Positions 5,441-47,304 of a stretch of DNA of 49,867 bases are shown one piece after another. The notes below the pieces were generated by a model, which saw only the letters and a program-made list of their open reading frames with translations, was not told where the DNA came from and did no database searches. The position numbers were made by a program, and so were the translations under genes. Source of the stretch: a virus. Each line of letters starts with the position of its first letter. The stretch's first letter is position 1. The stretch is from positions 1 to 49,867 of IMG/VR virus record IMGVR_UViG_3300025769_010522. One strand, 5' to 3'.

Positions 5441-5899
5441 ATGAAATCAACTTTTTTGTCTATATTAATTTCAATTATCTTGACTTCTTCAGTATGGGCG
5501 CAAGGTAATGATAAGAACGTGTTATATCAGGGCCTTAAAACTATTACGACCTGCCAGGCTACATTTAAAATAGCAGCATATTATGCAGGTATTTATTATA
5601 TGTTTAAAGAGAGTGTAGAAAATATGACCACTGATAGCTCTTTAATAGAAATGTTAAAAGAGGATTGGTTAGAAGCAGAGAAGATTTCAATTATGCTACA
5701 GCGATCGTTACAACCTTATATTTCCAATATAAATCAGGATGTAATTAGTTTATATAATGATATTTCTATGGGCCTGTTAATTAACGGATTAGATGCAAGT
5801 GACGATAAAGAACTAAGACAGCATGTTCAAAACTTATTTAGACTAAGTAAAGACTGCAAAACGCATATAGAAACTATTTCTGAATCACTAAAAAATTAA
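5441..5899 (+). CDS. Secreted or periplasmic helical protein of unknown function
   Basis: A 152-residue protein with a clear Sec signal peptide: a lysine at position 2, a hydrophobic stretch (FLSILISIILTSS) and a likely cleavage site after SVWA, near residue 20. The mature part is predicted mostly helical, with two cysteines (in TTCQAT and KDCKTH) that could pair in the periplasm. I recognise no family. It is a lone plus-strand gene behind an exact late promoter box, and it ends five bases from the convergent VWA gene. Late expression plus export would fit a role at the host envelope, such as lysis timing (compare the periplasmic antiholin RI of T4) or superinfection exclusion, but that is a guess. 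Confidence 0.8.
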   Translation: MKSTFLSILISIILTSSVWAQGNDKNVLYQGLKTITTCQATFKIAAYYAGIYYMFKESVENMTTDSSLIEMLKEDWLEAEKISIMLQRSLQPYISNINQDVISLYNDISMGLLINGLDASDDKELRQHVQNLFRLSKDCKTHIETISESLKN

Positions 5900-5904
5900 T
5901 TGGT

Positions 5905-7206
5905 TTAGGTTTTTGTACCCTCATAATAAGCCCAGTTGCCAAACGCTGGCTTAATAGTATCTGGGCCATGGATAATAAACACTGTGTCGCAGTAGAACTC
6001 ATCGCCCCATGAACCCATTGGGTACCCATCTGTAAACATCACAAAGCGATTGGGTTGAATATCTTCATGCTTCATGAAGTCCCAATTGCACATGAAGTCA
6101 GTACCACCTCCTCCCATAGGCTGATAGTTCATAATCTCGTCGAGATTATTGGCATCAAACTCAGCATAGTTATAAACCTTAGTATCAAAGCACCAAAGTT
6201 TAATTTTAAAGTCTGTGTACATGTTCATAATAGCCTTGAACTCGCTAAAGAAGTCACGTGCCTGGTGGTCACCAATTGAACCACTCATGTCCATGCCAAT
6301 AGCAATGTCAATAGTCTGCTCGGGGATCATACCAGGCAGCAGGAAGTCACTGCCCCAGCTCTTACGGCTACGACGCATAAAACTATAATCGCTCTTGATT
6401 GAGCTTTCAATGCTCATCGCAAGCAGGCTGCGCCAGTCCATCTTGGGCTCGGTAAGATCCTTAACAAGGCGAGCAACACCCCCAGGAAGGTTACCAGCAC
6501 CACCACCCAGCTTGGCGCTATTAATAAGAGCTTCCTTGATCTCATCACGGATCTTCTTGCGCTCTTCGTCAGAATAAGTGGGCTTACCCGAGCTCTTGAG
6601 GTTACCGTTCTCATCCTCTTCAGGCTTCCCACCAGAGCTGTTATCATCGTCGCTTTCAAGATGCTCGTCCAGTAACATATCAATAAGCTGATCCATGTCA
6701 ATCTTATCAGCGTTCTCATAGAGGTCATCATAGATTTCCTCCATGCTCATGTCGTAGTATTTCGAATCATGCAGAGCAGGCACGGTGGTAATAAGTGTAC
6801 CAATACCACTCTTAACAAGGTCACCGTTTACAGCATAGTCAGCTGCAATATTAGCAATCTGGGCGTTATGCTTGTTATCCTTACTACGCCCTAGATGCTC
6901 ATAAACATTGTGCAAAACCTCATGCCCGAAGAGAAACTCTACCTCTTTGGTCTTTAGCATGTTGATGAACTTGCTATTGTAATAGAAGTAACGACCGTCT
7001 GTAGCCGCTGTAGGGCACCAGTCGTCTGCATTAACCAGTGGTAACCGGGTTGCCATATTCCCAAACCATGGTGCCCTAATAAGCAAGCCTACTCGAGCTG
7101 TAGTGAGCTTCTCACGAGCCTCATAGTCCTCGCTAGGAACAGTCTCAAACCCTACTGGGATTTCTACGTTTTTCTTGTTTGCAGTGGTAGTAGGCATGCA
7201 GTTCAC
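5905..7206 (-). CDS. VWA-domain and metallopeptidase-like protein, partner of the AAA+ ATPase
   Basis: A 433-residue protein of the type annotated as predicted metal-dependent peptidase with a VWA-like domain. The N-terminal part has a zincin motif HEVLHNVYEH (95-104). Residues 180-215 form an acidic linker. The C-terminal VWA domain has the MIDAS residues DMSGS (306-310), GGGGTD (365-370) and FTDGYP (391-396). In bacteria such proteins pair with MoxR/CobS-type AAA+ ATPases to remodel or metallate target complexes, and the matching ATPase is at 7666-8778. The gene has its own sigma70-like promoter and GGAG site. Both genes of the pair are richer in GC and C-ending codons than their neighbours. 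The target of the pair is unknown. Confidence 0.88.
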   Translation of the reverse strand: MNCMPTTTANKKNVEIPVGFETVPSEDYEAREKLTTARVGLLIRAPWFGNMATRLPLVNADDWCPTAATDGRYFYYNSKFINMLKTKEVEFLFGHEVLHNVYEHLGRSKDNKHNAQIANIAADYAVNGDLVKSGIGTLITTVPALHDSKYYDMSMEEIYDDLYENADKIDMDQLIDMLLDEHLESDDDNSSGGKPEEDENGNLKSSGKPTYSDEERKKIRDEIKEALINSAKLGGGAGNLPGGVARLVKDLTEPKMDWRSLLAMSIESSIKSDYSFMRRSRKSWGSDFLLPGMIPEQTIDIAIGMDMSGSIGDHQARDFFSEFKAIMNMYTDFKIKLWCFDTKVYNYAEFDANNLDEIMNYQPMGGGGTDFMCNWDFMKHEDIQPNRFVMFTDGYPMGSWGDEFYCDTVFIIHGPDTIKPAFGNWAYYEGTKT

Positions 7207-7221
7207 TCCTTTTATATGTTT

Positions 7222-7249
7222 ATATTAACACACAAATAGTGTCTGTCAA
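7222..7249 (-). promoter_or_regulatory. Sigma70-like promoter with spacer dyad, for the VWA gene
   Basis: Minus-strand -35 TTGACA (7249-7244), a 16-base spacer and -10 TAATAT (7227-7222). The -35 is preceded by AAAACGG, shared with the ATPase promoter. The spacer holds a short inverted repeat, ACAC-N5-GTGT, a possible operator. The -35 overlaps the 3' end of the 92-residue gene upstream. Confidence 0.7.
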
Positions 7250-7524
7250 CCGTTTTTACCCATAAAAACTACTGGAAATTCAGCATATTTTGCCCTGCGT
7301 GTTTCGCTAGGTCCTCGACCATGACGCATCCCTACTGCGTAACCGTTTTCTAGTTCTACCCAGTAGTGCACATCTTTTTGTTCACCTGGCCAGCCGCTAT
7401 TGCTAGCATTACGAACTACTATCTTTTGGTCACCAAATTTGCGAGCAGGGATATTCCTATCCTCATATTTCTGCATCTTCCACCAAATTGCGAAGTCCTC
7501 AGAGAGAGTTAATTCTTGCATCAT
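7246..7524 (-). CDS. Hypothetical protein
   Basis: A 92-residue soluble protein between the AAA+ ATPase and VWA genes, with many aromatic and charged residues (DFAIWWKMQKYED, DVHYWVELENG, RHGRGPSETRR). I do not recognise it. Its position suggests co-transcription with the upstream ATPase. Its stop lies inside the -35 box of the VWA promoter. Confidence 0.65.
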   Translation of the reverse strand: MMQELTLSEDFAIWWKMQKYEDRNIPARKFGDQKIVVRNASNSGWPGEQKDVHYWVELENGYAVGMRHGRGPSETRRAKYAEFPVVFMGKNG

Positions 7525-7615
7525 CGTTATTCTTTGTTACCGTTTGATCGTATTGTGGAGGTCTTGTTAAGTTGGTATTGCCACATCCCAAGGTGCAATA
7601 CTTTTCCGACGTGCA

Positions 7616-7641
7616 CCCTGGTAGCCAGACTGCTACCAGGG
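7616..7641 (-). other. Perfect 10-bp hairpin downstream of the AAA+ ATPase gene
   Basis: CCCTGGTAGC (7616-7625) and GCTACCAGGG (7632-7641) form a perfect stem with a six-base loop, about 25 bases after the ATPase stop codon. No T-run follows on either strand, so it is not a standard intrinsic terminator. It may stabilise the 3' end of the ATPase transcript or uncouple it from the next gene. The rest of the 140-bp gap holds only a 19-codon frame. Confidence 0.6.
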
Positions 7642-7665
7642 TTACGAGGAGGAGCCACTTTACTA

Positions 7666-8778
7666 TTAGAATTCTGAAGCCTTAACAACATACTTGCCAA
7701 ACCGGTCAAAGAACTCCTTAAAGTGAGTAAGCTTGTTGGGTTGAAAGGGCAAGCTATAGTTGGCGATTGCTGTACGGGCACCCATAACAGTCATCTCCGT
7801 GGGGAAGAAATCCATCATGAACCGGAAGAAGTTGTCAGCCATCTCGTGCCACCGCTTACTGTCCTTCTTACCAAAGTCATCGTAGGCATTCTTGAGCTCG
7901 TAGCACATGCCAATAGTCAGGGCATACTGGGCGCTGATTTCCTTAATCTTGAGCTCCTTAACCTTACCAGCAAGGATATCCTTGGGGTGCGGCATGTCCT
8001 TGGCAACCTTACGGTGCGCCATGAACTTAATCGCAACACCCTCACCCACGCAACCGCTGACCAGGTCAGTAAGTTCGCTATCAGAGATCGTATCGTCCTC
8101 CAGGAAGCGGCTGACATAAGTCCAGCTACGCGGTGTAGCAAACGAGCGGCCGCTAGCGCGAGGATCAAAGTCCATGAGATCCTGCTTGGCGAAGCTGATA
8201 TAACCCACCACATCCTCGCTGATCTGGTTGTTAACAGCCCAGTTCAGCCAGCTTTCATAGTCCGCACGGACTTCAAGGTGGACGAAGCGGTTAGCCAGCG
8301 GAGTGGGCATACGGTAGGTAACGCCCTTGTCGCTCTCACGGTTACCTGCGGCAACAATCACCACATTCTCGGGCAACTTATAAGTGCCAATGCGACGGTT
8401 GAGGATCAGCTGGTAGGCAGCAGCCTGCACCGCAGGAGCAGCCGCGTTCATTTCATCCAGGAACAGGATGACAGTATCATACTCAGCAGCCATCTCTTCG
8501 CTGGGCAGATCCACTGGAGGTGCCCAGAGCATGTTATCCTGCTTCTTGCTAAGGAAGGGCATGCCACGCAGGTCTGTAGGCTCCATGAGCGCAACACGGA
8601 TATCTACCAGTGTAGCATTGCCCAGGATACCCTTGTTAGCAATACCAGCCATAAGCTCGCTCTTACCTACACCCGGAGGCCCCCAGAGGAAAACCGGAAG
8701 TTTATTGCGGAAAGCACGAACGATACGATTCTCGGCTTCTGCAAGAGTAACAGTACGGGCACTAACAATGTCTGCCAT
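7666..8778 (-). CDS. MoxR/CobS-type AAA+ ATPase
   Basis: A 370-residue AAA+ ATPase of the MoxR/CobS group (AAA_5-like). Walker A is GPPGVGKS (33-40) and Walker B is VILFLDEMNAA (103-113). A sensor region AAGNRESDKG is followed by PTPLANRFVHLEV, which carries the arginine finger. With the VWA protein at 5905-7206 it should form a ring ATPase/VWA adaptor pair that remodels some complex. Marine phage homologues are sometimes labelled cobS (cobaltochelatase). The adjacent metallopeptidase/VWA partner makes a chaperone-like pair more likely than cobalt chelation. GC content is visibly higher than in neighbouring genes (about 52% in one 60-base sample), and a long antisense frame on the plus strand is a by-product of this. 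Confidence 0.9.
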   Translation of the reverse strand: MADIVSARTVTLAEAENRIVRAFRNKLPVFLWGPPGVGKSELMAGIANKGILGNATLVDIRVALMEPTDLRGMPFLSKKQDNMLWAPPVDLPSEEMAAEYDTVILFLDEMNAAAPAVQAAAYQLILNRRIGTYKLPENVVIVAAGNRESDKGVTYRMPTPLANRFVHLEVRADYESWLNWAVNNQISEDVVGYISFAKQDLMDFDPRASGRSFATPRSWTYVSRFLEDDTISDSELTDLVSGCVGEGVAIKFMAHRKVAKDMPHPKDILAGKVKELKIKEISAQYALTIGMCYELKNAYDDFGKKDSKRWHEMADNFFRFMMDFFPTEMTVMGARTAIANYSLPFQPNKLTHFKEFFDRFGKYVVKASEF

Positions 8779-8806
8779 TTCTTTCTCCTTGTTTAACTAA
8801 TATCTA

Positions 8807-8834
8807 AACATAACACATTTGTGCTATGTGTCAA
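8807..8834 (-). promoter_or_regulatory. Sigma70-like promoter with spacer dyad, for the AAA+ ATPase
   Basis: Minus-strand -35 TTGACA (8834-8829), a 16-base spacer and a weak -10 TATGTT (8812-8807). AAAACGG precedes the -35, as at the VWA promoter. The -35 end and spacer form an inverted repeat ACACAT-N7-ATGTGT, a candidate operator. An AAGGAG site lies before the ATG at 8778. The rest of the gap (8835-8889) shows nothing else convincing. Confidence 0.65.
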
Positions 8835-8889
8835 CCGTTTTACATTGTTAAACGTAACCACATCACCCATGGAAAAAATAGACATCCTG

Positions 8890-9180
8890 TCAACCCAGTT
8901 CGCTTAACTGACCTACAGTGACTCTATCGTCTACGAACCCAGTGCCGTCGTGGCCCCAGTTCGTGTCAAACCATGAGAGCTCAACTGTATTGAACCGTGC
9001 GAGCTCTTCTTTAGCGGCAGCAAAAGCTTCTTCCATAGGAAGGGTCTCAGACCTCACTATCTTGGACTGCCCTTTTTGCACCATCCAAGTATTATCGTGG
9101 CCTTTTGCTACTGGGCCCTTAGCAATGTGAACTCTCCACTCTTTCGGCTCCCAAACTCGAAGGGTGTACATGATAGCCAT
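8890..9180 (-). CDS. Hypothetical protein
   Basis: A 96-residue protein starting MAIMYTLRVW. The frame is open a further 21 codons upstream, but that stretch encodes the duplicated promoter and ribosome-binding region (9186-9246), so I place the start at 9180, just after GGAGAG. Features include a basic WRVHIAKGPVAKGH segment and a helix EEAFAAAKEELARF. The family is unknown. Its leader is almost identical to that of the next gene, so the two are probably co-regulated. Confidence 0.7.
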   Translation of the reverse strand: MAIMYTLRVWEPKEWRVHIAKGPVAKGHDNTWMVQKGQSKIVRSETLPMEEAFAAAKEELARFNTVELSWFDTNWGHDGTGFVDDRVTVGQLSELG

Positions 9181-9185
9181 ATCTA

Positions 9186-9246
9186 CTCTCCTCATTTCCA
9201 ACTTATGTTTTATAATAGCACGACTACCCAGATAGTCAACCATTTT
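9186..9246 (-). promoter_or_regulatory. Duplicated promoter/leader, copy 1
   Basis: A 61-bp block, identical at 60 positions to 9523-9583. On the minus strand it holds -35 TTGACT (9239-9234), a 16-base spacer and -10 TATTAT (9217-9212), followed by a leader ending in GAGGAGAG, the ribosome binding site for the gene starting at 9180. An inverted repeat GACTA-N6-TAGTC begins in the -35 and runs through the spacer, a likely operator. Confidence 0.8.
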
Positions 9247-40919: not shown

Positions 40920-41657
40920 TTACCACCACTGGCCGCCTTTGACACCAAGAGCTTTATATCGTGGTGTGCGGCATGCCCAGTAACCTGCTTTCATCTTGTC
41001 GTTCTTTTGTTTACACTTGTGACGTGCTACAAATGAACGAACTCTGTCCCTATCGCCACTCTTTACGCTTAGTCCTGATGTATCGCCCCAACTGATCTTC
41101 TTAACACGACCAGTCTTTGGATTCTTTACATATACATAGAACTTTTTAGGACCGCCACGTTTGGGTGAATTCAGTTTAACTTTGCGTCCTTGATACTCTG
41201 CTTCGTCAAGCTCTACTTCTTCGTCTAGTCCACGTTTTTTCTTATTGACATAATAGTTACTACCTTTGCCATATCCATGACGCCATGCCATTGAGCGTAG
41301 GTCATCATCGCTCTTGTCTTTGTATCTTTCAGCAAAATCTTCGTCACTCATTTCAGCATTGCGTTGTTTGCTTTTTATAACACTGGCTGGCATTCCTTCA
41401 GCAAGGTCTTCTATAGGAACATCAAGAGGAACACGCTCGCCCTCTACCATAATACATTCACCGATGTCTGTATCAAGTAACTCCTGATCCTGCCAATCTA
41501 GGTCAAGACTTTCACGCATCTTACGCACACGAGTATAAAACTCTGTAAATGCTTCACTACCAGGACGGAACATGCATTCACTAAAAGGAATGCCACGAGC
41601 AATATGTTCCTTAATTGCTTCTTCAACTGGATTTCTTTTTAGATCACTTGCTTTCAT
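40920..41657 (-). CDS. Conserved phage protein with basic C-terminal domain
   Basis: A 245-residue protein. The N-terminus (MKASDLKRNPVEEAIKEH) is a helical leader, then an acidic middle. The C-terminal domain (about 155-245) reads KKFYVYVKNPKTGRVKKISWGD, GLSVKSGDRDRVRSF and HKCKQKNDKMKAGYWACR. I associate this module with T4-like marine phages, where it occurs in late proteins of unknown function. The paired cysteines might bind metal. It shares a four-base overlap with the next upstream gene and closes the late cluster at 40920-44696. Confidence 0.75.
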   Translation of the reverse strand: MKASDLKRNPVEEAIKEHIARGIPFSECMFRPGSEAFTEFYTRVRKMRESLDLDWQDQELLDTDIGECIMVEGERVPLDVPIEDLAEGMPASVIKSKQRNAEMSDEDFAERYKDKSDDDLRSMAWRHGYGKGSNYYVNKKKRGLDEEVELDEAEYQGRKVKLNSPKRGGPKKFYVYVKNPKTGRVKKISWGDTSGLSVKSGDRDRVRSFVARHKCKQKNDKMKAGYWACRTPRYKALGVKGGQWW

Positions 41658-42107: not shown

Positions 42108-42716
42108 TTAGTCATCTTCCCTTGGTGGGTTGCTATACATGTGTGCTTCTTCTAGAGCTTCCATAGCTTCAATTAGTTTTTGATGTGCATCTGCAATCCA
42201 TGCAGCGTCACCGCCTTCACGGTCTACCATTTTACTAAGCACTGCACCTTCTGCTGTAACTTTCATAAGACGGCCCATCATATTAAACATCTTTTGAAAA
42301 CTATCATCGATTGCTGTTGCAGAACTTGTGGCTTCTTTAACTGCGCTATCAACTGTGGTTAGATCATTACCCTGTGCTACTTCACTCTTCATAAAGTCAC
42401 GATATCGACTAGCAATATCACCTAGCACATCTTCGTTAGCTTTGTCTTCAGCTACAGATTCCTTCTTGGCTTTCTTGTCAGCGGCAGCCTTCTTCATGGA
42501 TTCTTCTTTATCGCCATCGCCATCTAAATCAATATAGTCTGGCTTTGCTGCTTCTTCAAGTTCATTAAACACCTTGAGAATACTGGCTGTCTCACGAGTG
42601 CCTACTACTGCTTCTTCAACTGGCTTGTATACTTCTTCACCGGTTACTGATACTTGATCTTCATCAGCACTAATAGCATTGAGCTTTTTTACTAGGTCTG
42701 CGAATGAATTGCTCAT
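42108..42716 (-). CDS. Acidic helical phage protein with EF-hand-like loop
   Basis: A 202-residue acidic protein. DYIDLDGDGDKEES (about 59-72) looks like a calcium-binding DxDxDG loop. The Lys/Glu/Ala-rich helix after it (KKAAADKKAKKESVAEDKAN) and helical C-terminus recall scaffold or prohead core proteins. Family not recognised. It lies between two small genes of the late cluster, overlapping the upstream gene by four bases. Confidence 0.7.
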   Translation of the reverse strand: MSNSFADLVKKLNAISADEDQVSVTGEEVYKPVEEAVVGTRETASILKVFNELEEAAKPDYIDLDGDGDKEESMKKAAADKKAKKESVAEDKANEDVLGDIASRYRDFMKSEVAQGNDLTTVDSAVKEATSSATAIDDSFQKMFNMMGRLMKVTAEGAVLSKMVDREGGDAAWIADAHQKLIEAMEALEEAHMYSNPPREDD

Positions 42717-43105
42717 CTCTTACTCCAATCTGAATACTTTGTTTTGAGTTTGCGGGTCTCTTGAACTGGCTCTGCAGACTCAAGTGCATCTAATGCATCT
42801 GCTGGCATCGCTTCCTGATTGTCAGAATTCATTCCGCTCATCTCATACTCTAGATGATGCTTAACACTGCCAATGTAATCTGCTGCCTTGGTAATCTTAG
42901 CTTGTACCCAACCCTCTAAGCCCTGTTCCTCGCTTACGTTTCGTAGCATGTCATGAAGCTCAATAGCATATTTTCCTATCCTATATAGATCTGCACGGGC
43001 CATTTGCACTTCATGATCTGTCTCACAACGATCAGCCATGTCACCTAGGTGACCTTCTGCAATCTGTTGTAGTTTTTTATAAGTATTTGCTATGTCGTTA
43101 CTCAT
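42713..43105 (-). CDS. Conserved helical phage protein
   Basis: A 130-residue helical protein. The core MARADLYRIGKYAIELHDML, then GLEGWVQAKITKAADYIG and SVKHHLEYEM is a pattern I associate with T4-like marine phages, with no function known. The last third is acidic and probably disordered. It has the best-placed late promoter in the window (TATAAATA 27 bases before the ATG, with AGGA between), so late expression is likely. Confidence 0.75.
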   Translation of the reverse strand: MSNDIANTYKKLQQIAEGHLGDMADRCETDHEVQMARADLYRIGKYAIELHDMLRNVSEEQGLEGWVQAKITKAADYIGSVKHHLEYEMSGMNSDNQEAMPADALDALESAEPVQETRKLKTKYSDWSKR

Positions 43106-44697: not shown

Positions 44698-47292
44698 TCA
44701 TTCCTCCCCGCCTGCTCCTACCATTTTGACTTTTTTCTTGCTCTTCCTAACTTTAAGTGGACGGTGTGGCGCAATAACTACTGTCATACCACTGCTCAAT
44801 GGTATGCCGATGCTGCCTTTTTCATTTAACTGTCCTTCTGTTAGTCCAAGATTGAATAGTGTATTGGGATCTGAATTCTTTCTTGCTTTAGCGTGTAGCT
44901 CTTTGGGCTTACCACTACCCAAACCTAGCTTCTTAACGTTTGCATACTCGCTACCAATTGGTGCGTCTTTGGTTGCGTTTTGTTTAGTAATACGCCCAAC
45001 ACCTGCTTCGTTTATGGATTCGTCTTTTACTTTCCACTTGTCTACTAGATAGTTTACTAGATCTTTGTGTGTAAGCATACGATTTTGTCGCATGAACTTT
45101 AGAATCTTAACCGCATCTTCTCGGTCTAAATTGCCAGGCTTTCTAGCATTGCTAAGTTCATTTCCTAGTCCGTGGTCATCGCCATCGTTATGATAATAGC
45201 GGAAACCTCTTACCAAGTCTTTGGCTTTTTTACCTAGATCAGCGTCAGTTTTGCCAAATATAACTTCGAGCCAGGGTAATAACCAGCGTGATCCGCTACC
45301 ACCTGTACGAAACGTTTCTGGGCCACTTAGTTCACTTTTCATTTGCGCTACACTGACTGCTTTGGCAGTATTTTGTAGTCTCCACGCAGATTCATCTTTA
45401 TACAAGTAAGTTGGTATACCCAGTGTTTTTGCTCGTATTAGAAACTGTCTGGTCTTAGCACTAGCAAATGGATTTTGTTCTTTTAATAAAACATGTATAC
45501 TTGTAACAGGGTCTATGGGCATAGTAGGATCTTTGCTGAATATACGATCCTCTGCTTCTTTGTTACGTCCAGCAATAGAGAACCCAGCCCAATAGTCCAC
45601 TGGTTTAACTGGATAACGATCACTAAACCAGCGCCCATTCAGTACAAACATTACTGCTGAATCACCAACTCTGCTGTGGTATTCGCCACCTTTGCTGCGG
45701 GCAGTGCTTAGAAAAAAGTTATGACCTTTGGGATTGATATCCTGTTCAACGCTACCTGCTACGCTGCTTAACTGAAACTCACCGGATTTTAAAATGTTCA
45801 ATGCTGGGCCAATTGTGGTATAGTGATAGACTATATCAGTGGCACGTTCATTTAGTTGAGATTCGCCTACATGCTTGAAGTATTCAATCTGTCTTAGACG
45901 TTCTTTAGCCTGTTTTTTACTTGGATAAGTGCCCATGCGCTTACCCTTTTTACTGTAAACAGTATACTGACTACCAGTCTTACGTATTGTTTCTGCTACT
46001 TCGCTTTCACTGTGGATCTCGGGCTGATCTTTTGTGCCACCGATTACTTTCCACTTTATACCCAAGCGTGATAGATCCTTGGTTAGTTTATCTAACATCT
46101 CCTCACTGGGAGGAACAATAACCATATCAGTTTCGCTTTGTCCATATTCATGTGGATCTTCTTGTCCTAGATTTGGATAGTGTTGACCAATCTTATACCA
46201 GTCAAGCTCACCGGGAGTGTCTATTACCACAGCTCTTTGTGGCATAGTCAACAAGTCTTTTTGGTAGCCTTTGGGATCTGGCTCTACATAAGGTCCTTCA
46301 ATATCTTCTATTCTATCATAATAGTCAGGAATTTCTGCTACATGATCCATTGCTATCTCTAAGGCTACATCAAAGTTTTTAGTATGTTCTGATTCTTTGG
46401 CAAGACCCTTTTTTAGTTGATCAACAACCTGTTGCAGTGATATATTATGTTTTTTAGCAATTTCAGGAATACTTGGTGTATATACGCTGGAAAGATCAGA
46501 GGACGTTGCATCTTCGTTTACGCCTTTGTTCTTTTTGCGGCCAGCACAGTGAGCACGTTGGCTAAATCCTTTTGGATTGTTACAGTTTATGCTACGCTTA
46601 TACTTTTCGCTCCAGGCTTCAACTACTACACCAAAGGCTTTCTTAACGTCCTCTGTAATGGGTTTAACTTCATCTAAACTTTTTAGCATTGTAGCAACTT
46701 CAATGATACGTGCAAGACTCTCCATCATACCCAATCCATTACGAACATCTCTATACATTGCCTGAGCAAGTTTGGGATCGGGTGTACCACTCTTAAACGA
46801 TTCAAAGTCGCCACTTGCTGCGGCGGCTCTCATTTTACTAGCACTCATACCTTCAGCACCTTCTGCATCAGGATCTCTGGCGCCAGCACTGACAACCTTT
46901 ATATTGTCAAAGTTATATGCTACATTGCCTTCTTTATCAGGCTGACCATTGTATGTTGAAAGTAGTTTTTGGAAGTCGTCCACACGGTCGCTACCAGCAA
47001 CATATATTAGGTTGCTGTAGCCCATGTCTGAAATTTTACTAAACGCTTGAATAGCAGTGCGTACTTCAGGATCACCCACAGTTACATTAGGGAAGAATGC
47101 CTTGGCATATCCTGCTTTTTGTTCAAAACTTAGGGGATCTGTCTTGGGTTTTTGACTATGACTTAGAAAGATATACGGATCACCAGGCAAACTAGCTATT
47201 TTATCAGCTAATTTTGCATGACCGATAGTAGGAGGATTCATCCTACCAAAAGCTATTACTGCTGTTTTACCTTCTGCCTCATAGATTTTCAT
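44698..47292 (-). CDS. Fused nucleotidyltransferase and ADP-ribosyltransferase-like late polyprotein
   Basis: An 864-residue multidomain protein starting MKIYEAEGKTAVIAFG; the frame extends 26 codons further, but that part is a hydrophobic read of the overlap region. Domain 1 (1-165) is a cytidylyltransferase-fold enzyme with PTIGH (21-25) and MSASKMR (149-155), like NMN adenylyltransferase. Basic linkers follow (KYKRSINCNNPKGFSQ, TVYSKKGKRMGTYPSKKQA). Domain 2 (about 484-640) looks like an ADP-ribosyltransferase: VYHYTTIGPALNILKSG, FFLSTARSK and KEAEDRIF (E579/E581). Four short sites, GVNE (260), QLNE (482), SINE (762) and QLNE (824), sit between parts and fit the (L/I)xE rule of prohead proteases. 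It may be made late, packaged and cut, as T4 Alt is. Confidence 0.75.
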   Translation of the reverse strand: MKIYEAEGKTAVIAFGRMNPPTIGHAKLADKIASLPGDPYIFLSHSQKPKTDPLSFEQKAGYAKAFFPNVTVGDPEVRTAIQAFSKISDMGYSNLIYVAGSDRVDDFQKLLSTYNGQPDKEGNVAYNFDNIKVVSAGARDPDAEGAEGMSASKMRAAAASGDFESFKSGTPDPKLAQAMYRDVRNGLGMMESLARIIEVATMLKSLDEVKPITEDVKKAFGVVVEAWSEKYKRSINCNNPKGFSQRAHCAGRKKNKGVNEDATSSDLSSVYTPSIPEIAKKHNISLQQVVDQLKKGLAKESEHTKNFDVALEIAMDHVAEIPDYYDRIEDIEGPYVEPDPKGYQKDLLTMPQRAVVIDTPGELDWYKIGQHYPNLGQEDPHEYGQSETDMVIVPPSEEMLDKLTKDLSRLGIKWKVIGGTKDQPEIHSESEVAETIRKTGSQYTVYSKKGKRMGTYPSKKQAKERLRQIEYFKHVGESQLNERATDIVYHYTTIGPALNILKSGEFQLSSVAGSVEQDINPKGHNFFLSTARSKGGEYHSRVGDSAVMFVLNGRWFSDRYPVKPVDYWAGFSIAGRNKEAEDRIFSKDPTMPIDPVTSIHVLLKEQNPFASAKTRQFLIRAKTLGIPTYLYKDESAWRLQNTAKAVSVAQMKSELSGPETFRTGGSGSRWLLPWLEVIFGKTDADLGKKAKDLVRGFRYYHNDGDDHGLGNELSNARKPGNLDREDAVKILKFMRQNRMLTHKDLVNYLVDKWKVKDESINEAGVGRITKQNATKDAPIGSEYANVKKLGLGSGKPKELHAKARKNSDPNTLFNLGLTEGQLNEKGSIGIPLSSGMTVVIAPHRPLKVRKSKKKVKMVGAGGEE

Positions 47293-47296
47293 ACAG

Positions 47297-47304
47297 TATT
47301 TATA
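47297..47304 (-). promoter_or_regulatory. T4-type late promoter box
   Basis: An exact TATAAATA on the minus strand (47304-47297), only four bases before the ATG at 47292 of the polyprotein gene. Transcripts from it would be leaderless or nearly so; otherwise the gene is read from an upstream start. It overlaps the end of the gene at 47300-47758. Confidence 0.5.

Follow-up and report, generated by a model that had tools for sequence, protein, structure and literature searches.

In the relevant parts of the T4 literature, the prohead protease gp21 is reported to cleave after L/I-x-E (PMC9026906), and targeting of the internal protein IPIII to require just its first ten residues. Head-packaged and polyvalent ADP-ribosyltransferases (ARTs) are an established idea as well (relevant parts of PMC5512222 and PMC9503650). 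Here we analyzed 49,867 nucleotides of viral DNA (IMG/VR record IMGVR_UViG_3300025769_010522, positions 1 to 49,867; "the window"), in which a minus-strand open reading frame (ORF) running from an ATG at 47292 to a stop at 44698 encodes a protein of 864 residues. The protein combines a nucleotidyltransferase, several smaller modules and a predicted ART, and carries L/I-x-E at module edges, as in gp21-type substrates. It is probably an effector polyprotein that a T4-like phage makes late, targets to its capsid, cuts in the gp21 manner and injects.

The motifs quoted in a preliminary description of the locus, which named no strand, were all located in this minus-strand product: PTIGH (residues 21-25), SASKMR (150-155), VYHYTT (488-493), FFLSTARS (526-533) and KEAEDRIF (578-585), together with exactly four [LIV]NE sites (258-260, 480-482, 760-762 and 822-824). 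The plus strand across 44698-47292 is rich in stops. Residue shuffling gave an expectation of 0.48 [LIV]NE sites and reached four in 1 of 2000 shuffles, for a motif that was picked after having been seen. The broader [LI]xE pattern showed a mild excess (10 versus 7.0), attained by 0.16 of the shuffles. Comparison with relatives provides stronger evidence than these counts that the sites matter.

The site in front of the ART was scanned in all 51 viral loci (37 distinct ART copies) with the tripeptide left free in the pattern. An [LIM]xE ended four residues ahead of the first-strand motif in 37 of the 37 distinct copies, which are homologous and therefore not independent. The tripeptides, variable in their middle residue, were 22 LxE, 14 IxE and one MKE; by comparison, [LIVM]xE occurs near that distance at a base rate of 2.7% when two offsets are allowed. 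Depending on the protein, this site lies internally or terminates a short leader. Leaders of stand-alone ARTs (MRATEFIAE/G, MKAVEFIAE/S and MRAIQFITE, a slash following the site) resemble MKTYQEFIAE/A of T4 IPII/IPIII, and the unit 483-762 matches the stand-alone relatives in extent, with 38-51% identity. Moreover, [LIV]xE precedes the first strand of the nucleotidyltransferase in all 41 aligned sequences including the window, most commonly as ..LFE/A. The notion that L/I-x-E sites bound the modules was thus borne out by conserved position at both enzymes. The V-x-E at 258-260 falls outside the L/I rule of gp21; its equivalent is kept in locus L033 before a different module and is absent from L002 and L003.

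Leaders of named phages were inspected in 17 ART proteins from 9 of 33 records, and 9 of the 17 have an LxE-type leader site. In Alishewanella phage Slickus01 (L018, 3863-10465), nine adjacent genes, all annotated as hypothetical, have [LI]xE in every leader; five belong to the ART family of the polyprotein and one to Pfam ART-PolyVal (44.1 bits), an apparent array of head-packaged effectors. Peptidase_S77, the T4-type prohead protease, was found in 8 of 21 related records, most of which are fragments (4/17 of those bearing the ART and 4/4 of those chosen by the nucleotidyltransferase), and in all six records of at least 150 kb.

The ART-like region was modelled with AlphaFold2 from 35 aligned sequences, among them the window (alignment 1). 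The model had a mean predicted local distance difference test score (pLDDT) of 88.5 and a predicted template modelling score (pTM) of 0.82. In Foldseek searches against the PDB, ranks 1-7 were all DarT (E 7.1e-5 to 3.4e-3, prob 1.00), with noise below. VIA yielded Z 10.6 for yeast Tpt1 (111 residues aligned, 2.5 Å), 8.6-9.8 for DarT (139-144 aligned, 3.7-4.1 Å; Z 9.8 for 144 aligned at 3.8 Å), 7.7 for CC0527, 6.0-7.7 for other Tpt1 and at most 5.6 for other ART toxins. Matches to solved structures spanned model residues 1-162 only. The helical part that follows is unmatched by solved structures and is conserved along with the ART in most relatives; some short members from named phages consist of the ART core without it.

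The six residues given as invariant in Table 1 are so in 35/35 sequences of alignment 1, as is D582, and in 33/33 of alignment 2, which comprises 16 sequences common to alignment 1 and 17 from named phages. H490 lies within model strand 7-12 and E581 opens the late strand 101-106. In ARTs generally, the catalytic Glu sits where a late strand begins. The fold together with the first-strand His and this Glu supports the assignment of residues 483-643 to the ART superfamily with predicted use of nicotinamide adenine dinucleotide (NAD+), and the structure check on the ART-like region of the preliminary description thus returned an ART fold rather than none. R532 and E581 are plausible equivalents of the Arg at 51/52 and the Glu at 160/152 that are essential in DarT (relevant part of PMC11543638).

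At the level of sequence profiles the family stands apart. The 35 ART members had no DarT match in Pfam-A or PADLOC-DB at E<=10 beyond scattered chance matches. Both libraries presumably contain a DarT model and, because this curated match failed, we did not file the ART as DarT. The ART region of the window matched nothing in Pfam (E<=10), NCBIfam or PADLOC, neither the window protein nor the 35 members matched Pfam ART-PolyVal (PF18760) at E<=10, and profile searches of PDB sequences with the ART gave nothing useful. Macro (DarG) and NADAR were each found in 0/16 records, most of them fragments. Among cellular genomes, searched with strict patterns, 14 pattern matches included no relative. 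The best-matching viral structure models were uncharacterised phage proteins; weaker matches came from a baculovirus and an iridovirus (E 2.5e-3 and 5e-3). A DarT-related ART family has been reported in these two virus groups (relevant part of PMC9503650). In L149 (3011-4663), an LNE just behind the ART unit precedes LYHGTSQKENMLEIVRNGL, which may be a second, tandem ART.

The preliminary description had proposed that host proteins are modified and had cited T4 Alt. The ART is not Alt-like by sequence, and because the nearest solved folds, DarT and Tpt1, act on nucleic acids, we do not take modification of host proteins as the default. An Alt-style action on RNA polymerase or translation factors is tentatively possible. 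Alt itself is a head-packaged precedent in the T4 literature, and the ARTs of polyvalent proteins are thought to act on proteins (relevant part of PMC5512222). In contrast, the window protein had no match to phrog_802 (Alt) at E<=1, a profile that T4 Alt itself matches with 871 bits, the active-site pattern is H...S..R...ExE instead of the R-S-E of Alt, and DarT provided the only credible Foldseek matches in the PDB. By fold only, a nucleic acid is somewhat more likely as the target than a protein, whereas precedent favours protein. We regard as doubtful the more specific proposal of a DarT-type nucleic-acid ART that is freed by the protease, injected as head cargo and marks host DNA or RNA at the start of infection, possibly with a cofactor-supplying enzyme. 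If true, such cargo would be the reverse of the bacterial DarTG defence.

The N-terminal domain matched phrog_3041 ("cytidyltransferase") at 2.7e-49 and phrog_395 at 8.6e-36, and its score for Pfam CTP_transf_like (18.1 bits) lay under the cut-off of 21. A profile search of PDB sequences with its family produced only chance matches to S-layer and Hsp70 proteins. A confident AlphaFold2 model (pLDDT 87.5) placed PPAT/CoaD first (Foldseek 3.4e-7, VIA Z 14.9) and NadD next (5.6e-5, Z 13.3). Despite the Pfam score under the cut-off, this fold and the (H/T)xGH ... SxSKxR signature support a nucleotidyltransferase of the HIGH superfamily, of which we take PTIGH and SxSKMR to be the motifs. The nucleotidyltransferase domain of the preliminary description is supported.

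The substrate is not callable from fold or motif. T-x-G-H, which the window family has and which occurs in one PPAT sequence compared, looks PPAT-like, and an NMNAT assignment is unproven. The preliminary description had gone further and suggested that the domain makes NAD+. An adenylyltransferase for nicotinamide mononucleotide (NMN) or nicotinic acid mononucleotide (NaMN) could form a working pair with the ART, either making its NAD+ or restoring NAD+ depleted by host defence. Both enzymes are encoded in a single chain at 17 of the 51 loci (10 of the 37 distinct ART segments), the scores of NadD folds approach those of PPAT, and published authors, those of PMC10665884 among them, call the cyanophage homologue NMNAT. 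This pairing is nevertheless unlikely. PPAT ranked ahead in both Foldseek and VIA, an NAPRTase/NadV-type enzyme was found in 0/20 records, mostly fragments, and an ART of this family in 0/79 other nucleotidyltransferase loci (59 distinct proteins, of which a contig end truncates 5) among the best 80 of 582 matches. Because of these 79 loci we assume that the nucleotidyltransferase has a job independent of the ART; the pairing recurs and the nucleotidyltransferase is used more widely. The same nucleotidyltransferase family is fused to a different glycine-rich module (VFYRGEG...GRGVYLTW or close) in L091, L101 and L105; in L091 and L105 this module had no library match, and it is possible that it is an ART.

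Packaging into the head, likewise suggested before, found support for the nucleotidyltransferase family through published virion proteomics and leader-bearing homologues. According to the relevant parts of PMC9146016 and PMC9602691 and to GenBank notes, the virion proteomes of S-SZBM1 and S-SCSM1 include a nucleotidyltransferase homologue. These proteins share 36.0% and 39.8% identity, respectively, and begin with the leaders MRFRQFIIE/A and MKSFLQFLKE/A. By eye, with no search made, no ART module was seen in either sequence, the one from S-SCSM1 being incomplete at its end. A nucleotidyltransferase is likewise reported in the virions of S-CREM2 and S-CBWM1 (relevant part of PMC10665884).

Further evidence came from module swapping. 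L002 and L003 retain the middle and the tail of the window protein; the nucleotidyltransferase at the corresponding position is a different one, and a Cu/Zn superoxide dismutase precedes the ART. Residues 542-674 of the L003 polyprotein (5772-9191) form a complete Sod_Cu domain (154.7 bits). L033 retains the nucleotidyltransferase and the tail with other modules between them. The tail carriers L033, L060 and L002 differ in inner modules, and their last sites are LNE, LTE and LDE compared with LNE in the window; the tail had no match in the phage sequence collection at E<=1. At other loci the ART stands beside GNAT or DUF5661 domains, and beside ParB-like stretches that score under the Pfam cut-off. 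The nucleotidyltransferase of the 17 paired loci, which precedes the ART, is of the window type by profile in 15 and of another type (32.7 Pfam bits) in L113 and L153. In the nucleotidyltransferase polyprotein of L060 (3989-6595), a sigma-70 region 4 domain scored 38.7 bits (cut-off 24.1), and a GNAT-like and a ParB-like stretch stayed under their cut-offs (25.9 against 27 and 12.9 against 26.3, respectively). That the LxE sites merely serve scaffold removal in what is mainly a prohead core component with enzyme remnants is improbable: cleavage after L/I-x-E does divide T4 core proteins into several pieces (relevant part of PMC9026906), and DUF5661 is also present close to the terminase gene of a Vibrio phage, in a protein annotated as DUF2213, but the presumed catalytic residues do not vary among diverged ARTs, many ARTs stand alone with only a leader, and one relative has the complete Sod_Cu domain.

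From the modules, site positions, leader resemblance, swapping, predicted folds and the gp21-type protease of eight related records we infer the following course for the effector polyprotein. After late synthesis, the N-terminal leader, perhaps aided by scaffold-type modules, would bring it into the prohead core. A gp21-type prohead protease would cut after L/I-x-E at the leader, in the linker and at 482, 762 and 824, which would release the nucleotidyltransferase of the HIGH superfamily, a fragment with DUF5661 and a compact ART unit of 280 residues. The fragments would remain with the DNA and then be ejected into the cell, where the ART would consume NAD+ and ADP-ribosylate some target of the host as infection begins.

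Several observations weigh against this interpretation, in addition to the shared ancestry of the 37 ART copies. Eight of the 17 ART proteins from named phages are without an LxE leader (three from Lu11, one from HRDY3 and two each from JA29 and Sen-NF); Lu11 and HRDY3 have an alternative leader (LAVA or LALA), JA29 and Sen-NF none. Peptidase_S77 was found neither in the window nor in the virus's own, fragmentary 108-kb contig, and in 1/9 records of another set. An apparent avoidance of [LI]xE inside the folded domains was dropped as an argument, some control motifs being equally depleted ([VF]xE in the ART, [LI]xR in both). The Foldseek TM-scores of the DarT matches were low, 0.29-0.36 by query length with a root-mean-square deviation of 6.4-7.6 Å, and the top match (E 7.1e-5) had 0.34/0.46. 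Finally, the published virion detections of the nucleotidyltransferase consist of few peptides, three in S-CREM2 (relevant part of PMC10665884), and their authors allow carry-over.

Lu11 (L028, 75-4873) has six genes with the leader (M/V)KI(Q/M)LA(V/L/T)A, three of which belong to this ART family, and one of the six resembles ART-PolyVal (22.9 bits, cut-off 31.2). This suggests another capsid leader and protease specificity.

Table 1. Coordinates of the polyprotein modules, candidate sites and adjacent features in the window.
Feature	Coordinates	Strand	Evidence or remark
Leader MKIYE (residues 1-5), candidate capsid-targeting, ends in IxE	47278..47292	-	E5 is an invariant column
Nucleotidyltransferase domain (about 6-190)	46723..47277	-	PHROG matches, AlphaFold2 model
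Linker (191-260)	46513..46722	-	Extra [LI]xE at 196, 206 and 212; KYKRSINCNNPKGFSQRAHC; VNE 258-260
DUF5661 (277-332)	46297..46464	-	Pfam 47.6 bits, cut-off 27
Short module ..RLRQIEYFKH (about 431-477)	45862..46002	-	phrog_3684 6e-7, phrog_2859 1.2e-6
LNE 480-482, candidate cleavage site before the ART	45847..45855	-	[LIM]xE here in 37/37 distinct copies
Predicted ART domain (483-643)	45364..45846	-	Invariant H490, S529, R532, E579, E581, R583
Helical remainder of the ART unit (644-762), ends in INE 760-762	45007..45363	-	AlphaFold2 model
C-terminal tail (763-864) with LNE 822-824	44701..45006	-	Similar tails in L033, L060 and L002
Candidate T4-type late promoter box TATAAATA	47297..47304	-	4 nt upstream of the ATG
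Neighbouring gene	40920..41657	-	Product homologous to C-terminal part of Melnitz nucleotidyltransferase polyprotein

Two of the smaller segments have relatives of their own. The KYKRSINCNNPKGFSQRAHC motif of the linker was matched in 17 phage records, all from Synechococcus or Prochlorococcus phages. The 431-477 module weakly resembles the C-terminus of gp57B of RB43-like phages (tblastn 42.6-44.7% identity, E 4e-3 to 7e-3). This gp57B (L022/L023, 1021-1644), which bears an anti-CBASS annotation in Citrof4, starts with MKSF(I/L)EVAK and may be head-associated as well.

Judged by its DNA polymerase, which matched phrog_262 at 3.9e-195, the window appears to be part of the genome of a T4-like phage. 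The same virus is represented by a public 108-kb contig (99.85% over 49 kb), which additionally contains very long ORFs, the longest of 4,444 residues, that we took for tail genes. The box TATAAATA, which we take to be the T4 late-promoter consensus, is found at identical spacing in the related loci L033, L036 and L060, its start lying 12 nt from the ATG. Within 80 nt it occurred in 3 of 76 upstream regions tested, versus 0.7 expected from shuffles, and in the window. This spacing is no more than suggestive of late expression. An enrichment of TATAAATA on contig G001 was rejected (7 seen against a rough expectation of 17), leaving the fixed distance in the four related loci as its only noteworthy feature. 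Melnitz carries the nucleotidyltransferase fused to a module that is a separate gene, 40920-41657, in the window (58.8% identity over 102 residues and 36.6% over 82). This gene and another neighbouring gene, 42713-43105, contain L/I-x-E sites too (VELDE/A and QIAE/G) and may encode further prohead-core or cargo proteins.

Titles and abstract openings in the literature, a scope outside which most subscription papers and preprints fall, held no account of a nucleotidyltransferase-ART fusion or of this ART family. Neither such a fusion nor LxE sites are described in the relevant parts of PMC5512222 and PMC9503650; "prohead protease" occurs once in the former and "prohead" is absent from the latter. 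The ART family, which lies outside the curated libraries searched, its fusion to a nucleotidyltransferase and the swappable layout bounded by L/I-x-E with T4-type leaders therefore appear to be undescribed. A leader combined with the LxE rule could serve to recognise likely injected cargo from sequence, and hypothetical phage proteins with GNAT, superoxide dismutase or several ART domains become candidate early effectors. With 280 residues and a confident model, the compact ART unit lends itself to direct assay.

Compared with known systems, the polyprotein shares with T4 Alt and the internal proteins the leader ending in L/I-x-E, the logic of head packaging and an ART among the cargo. In contrast to them, it joins several enzymes, separated by sites, in a single chain, and its ART forms a separate sequence family with H...S..R...ExE and a DarT/Tpt1-like fold. 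Polyvalent proteins of phages and conjugative elements are likewise multi-domain, predicted to be injected and built from recombining effectors, with ARTs among the commonest domains (relevant parts of PMC5512222 and PMC9503650), whereas T4-like leaders, LxE-bounded modules and an N-terminal nucleotidyltransferase distinguish the protein described here. DarT of the DarTG system provides the nearest Foldseek matches, and the Glu opening the late strand and the Arg after strand 2 are conserved. In contrast to DarT, all 35 members fail the curated profile, no Macro or NADAR gene was found in the 16 records, fragments included, and the ART is phage-side and apparently packaged. The virion "cytidylyltransferase/NMNAT" of the cyanophages S-SZBM1 and S-SCSM1 resembles the N-terminal part in its homologous nucleotidyltransferase, its LxE leader and its detection in virions. 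The locus thereby connects this cyanophage protein with the unnamed proteins of ART fold that jumbo and T4-like phages encode, and with the capsid-targeting leaders of T4.

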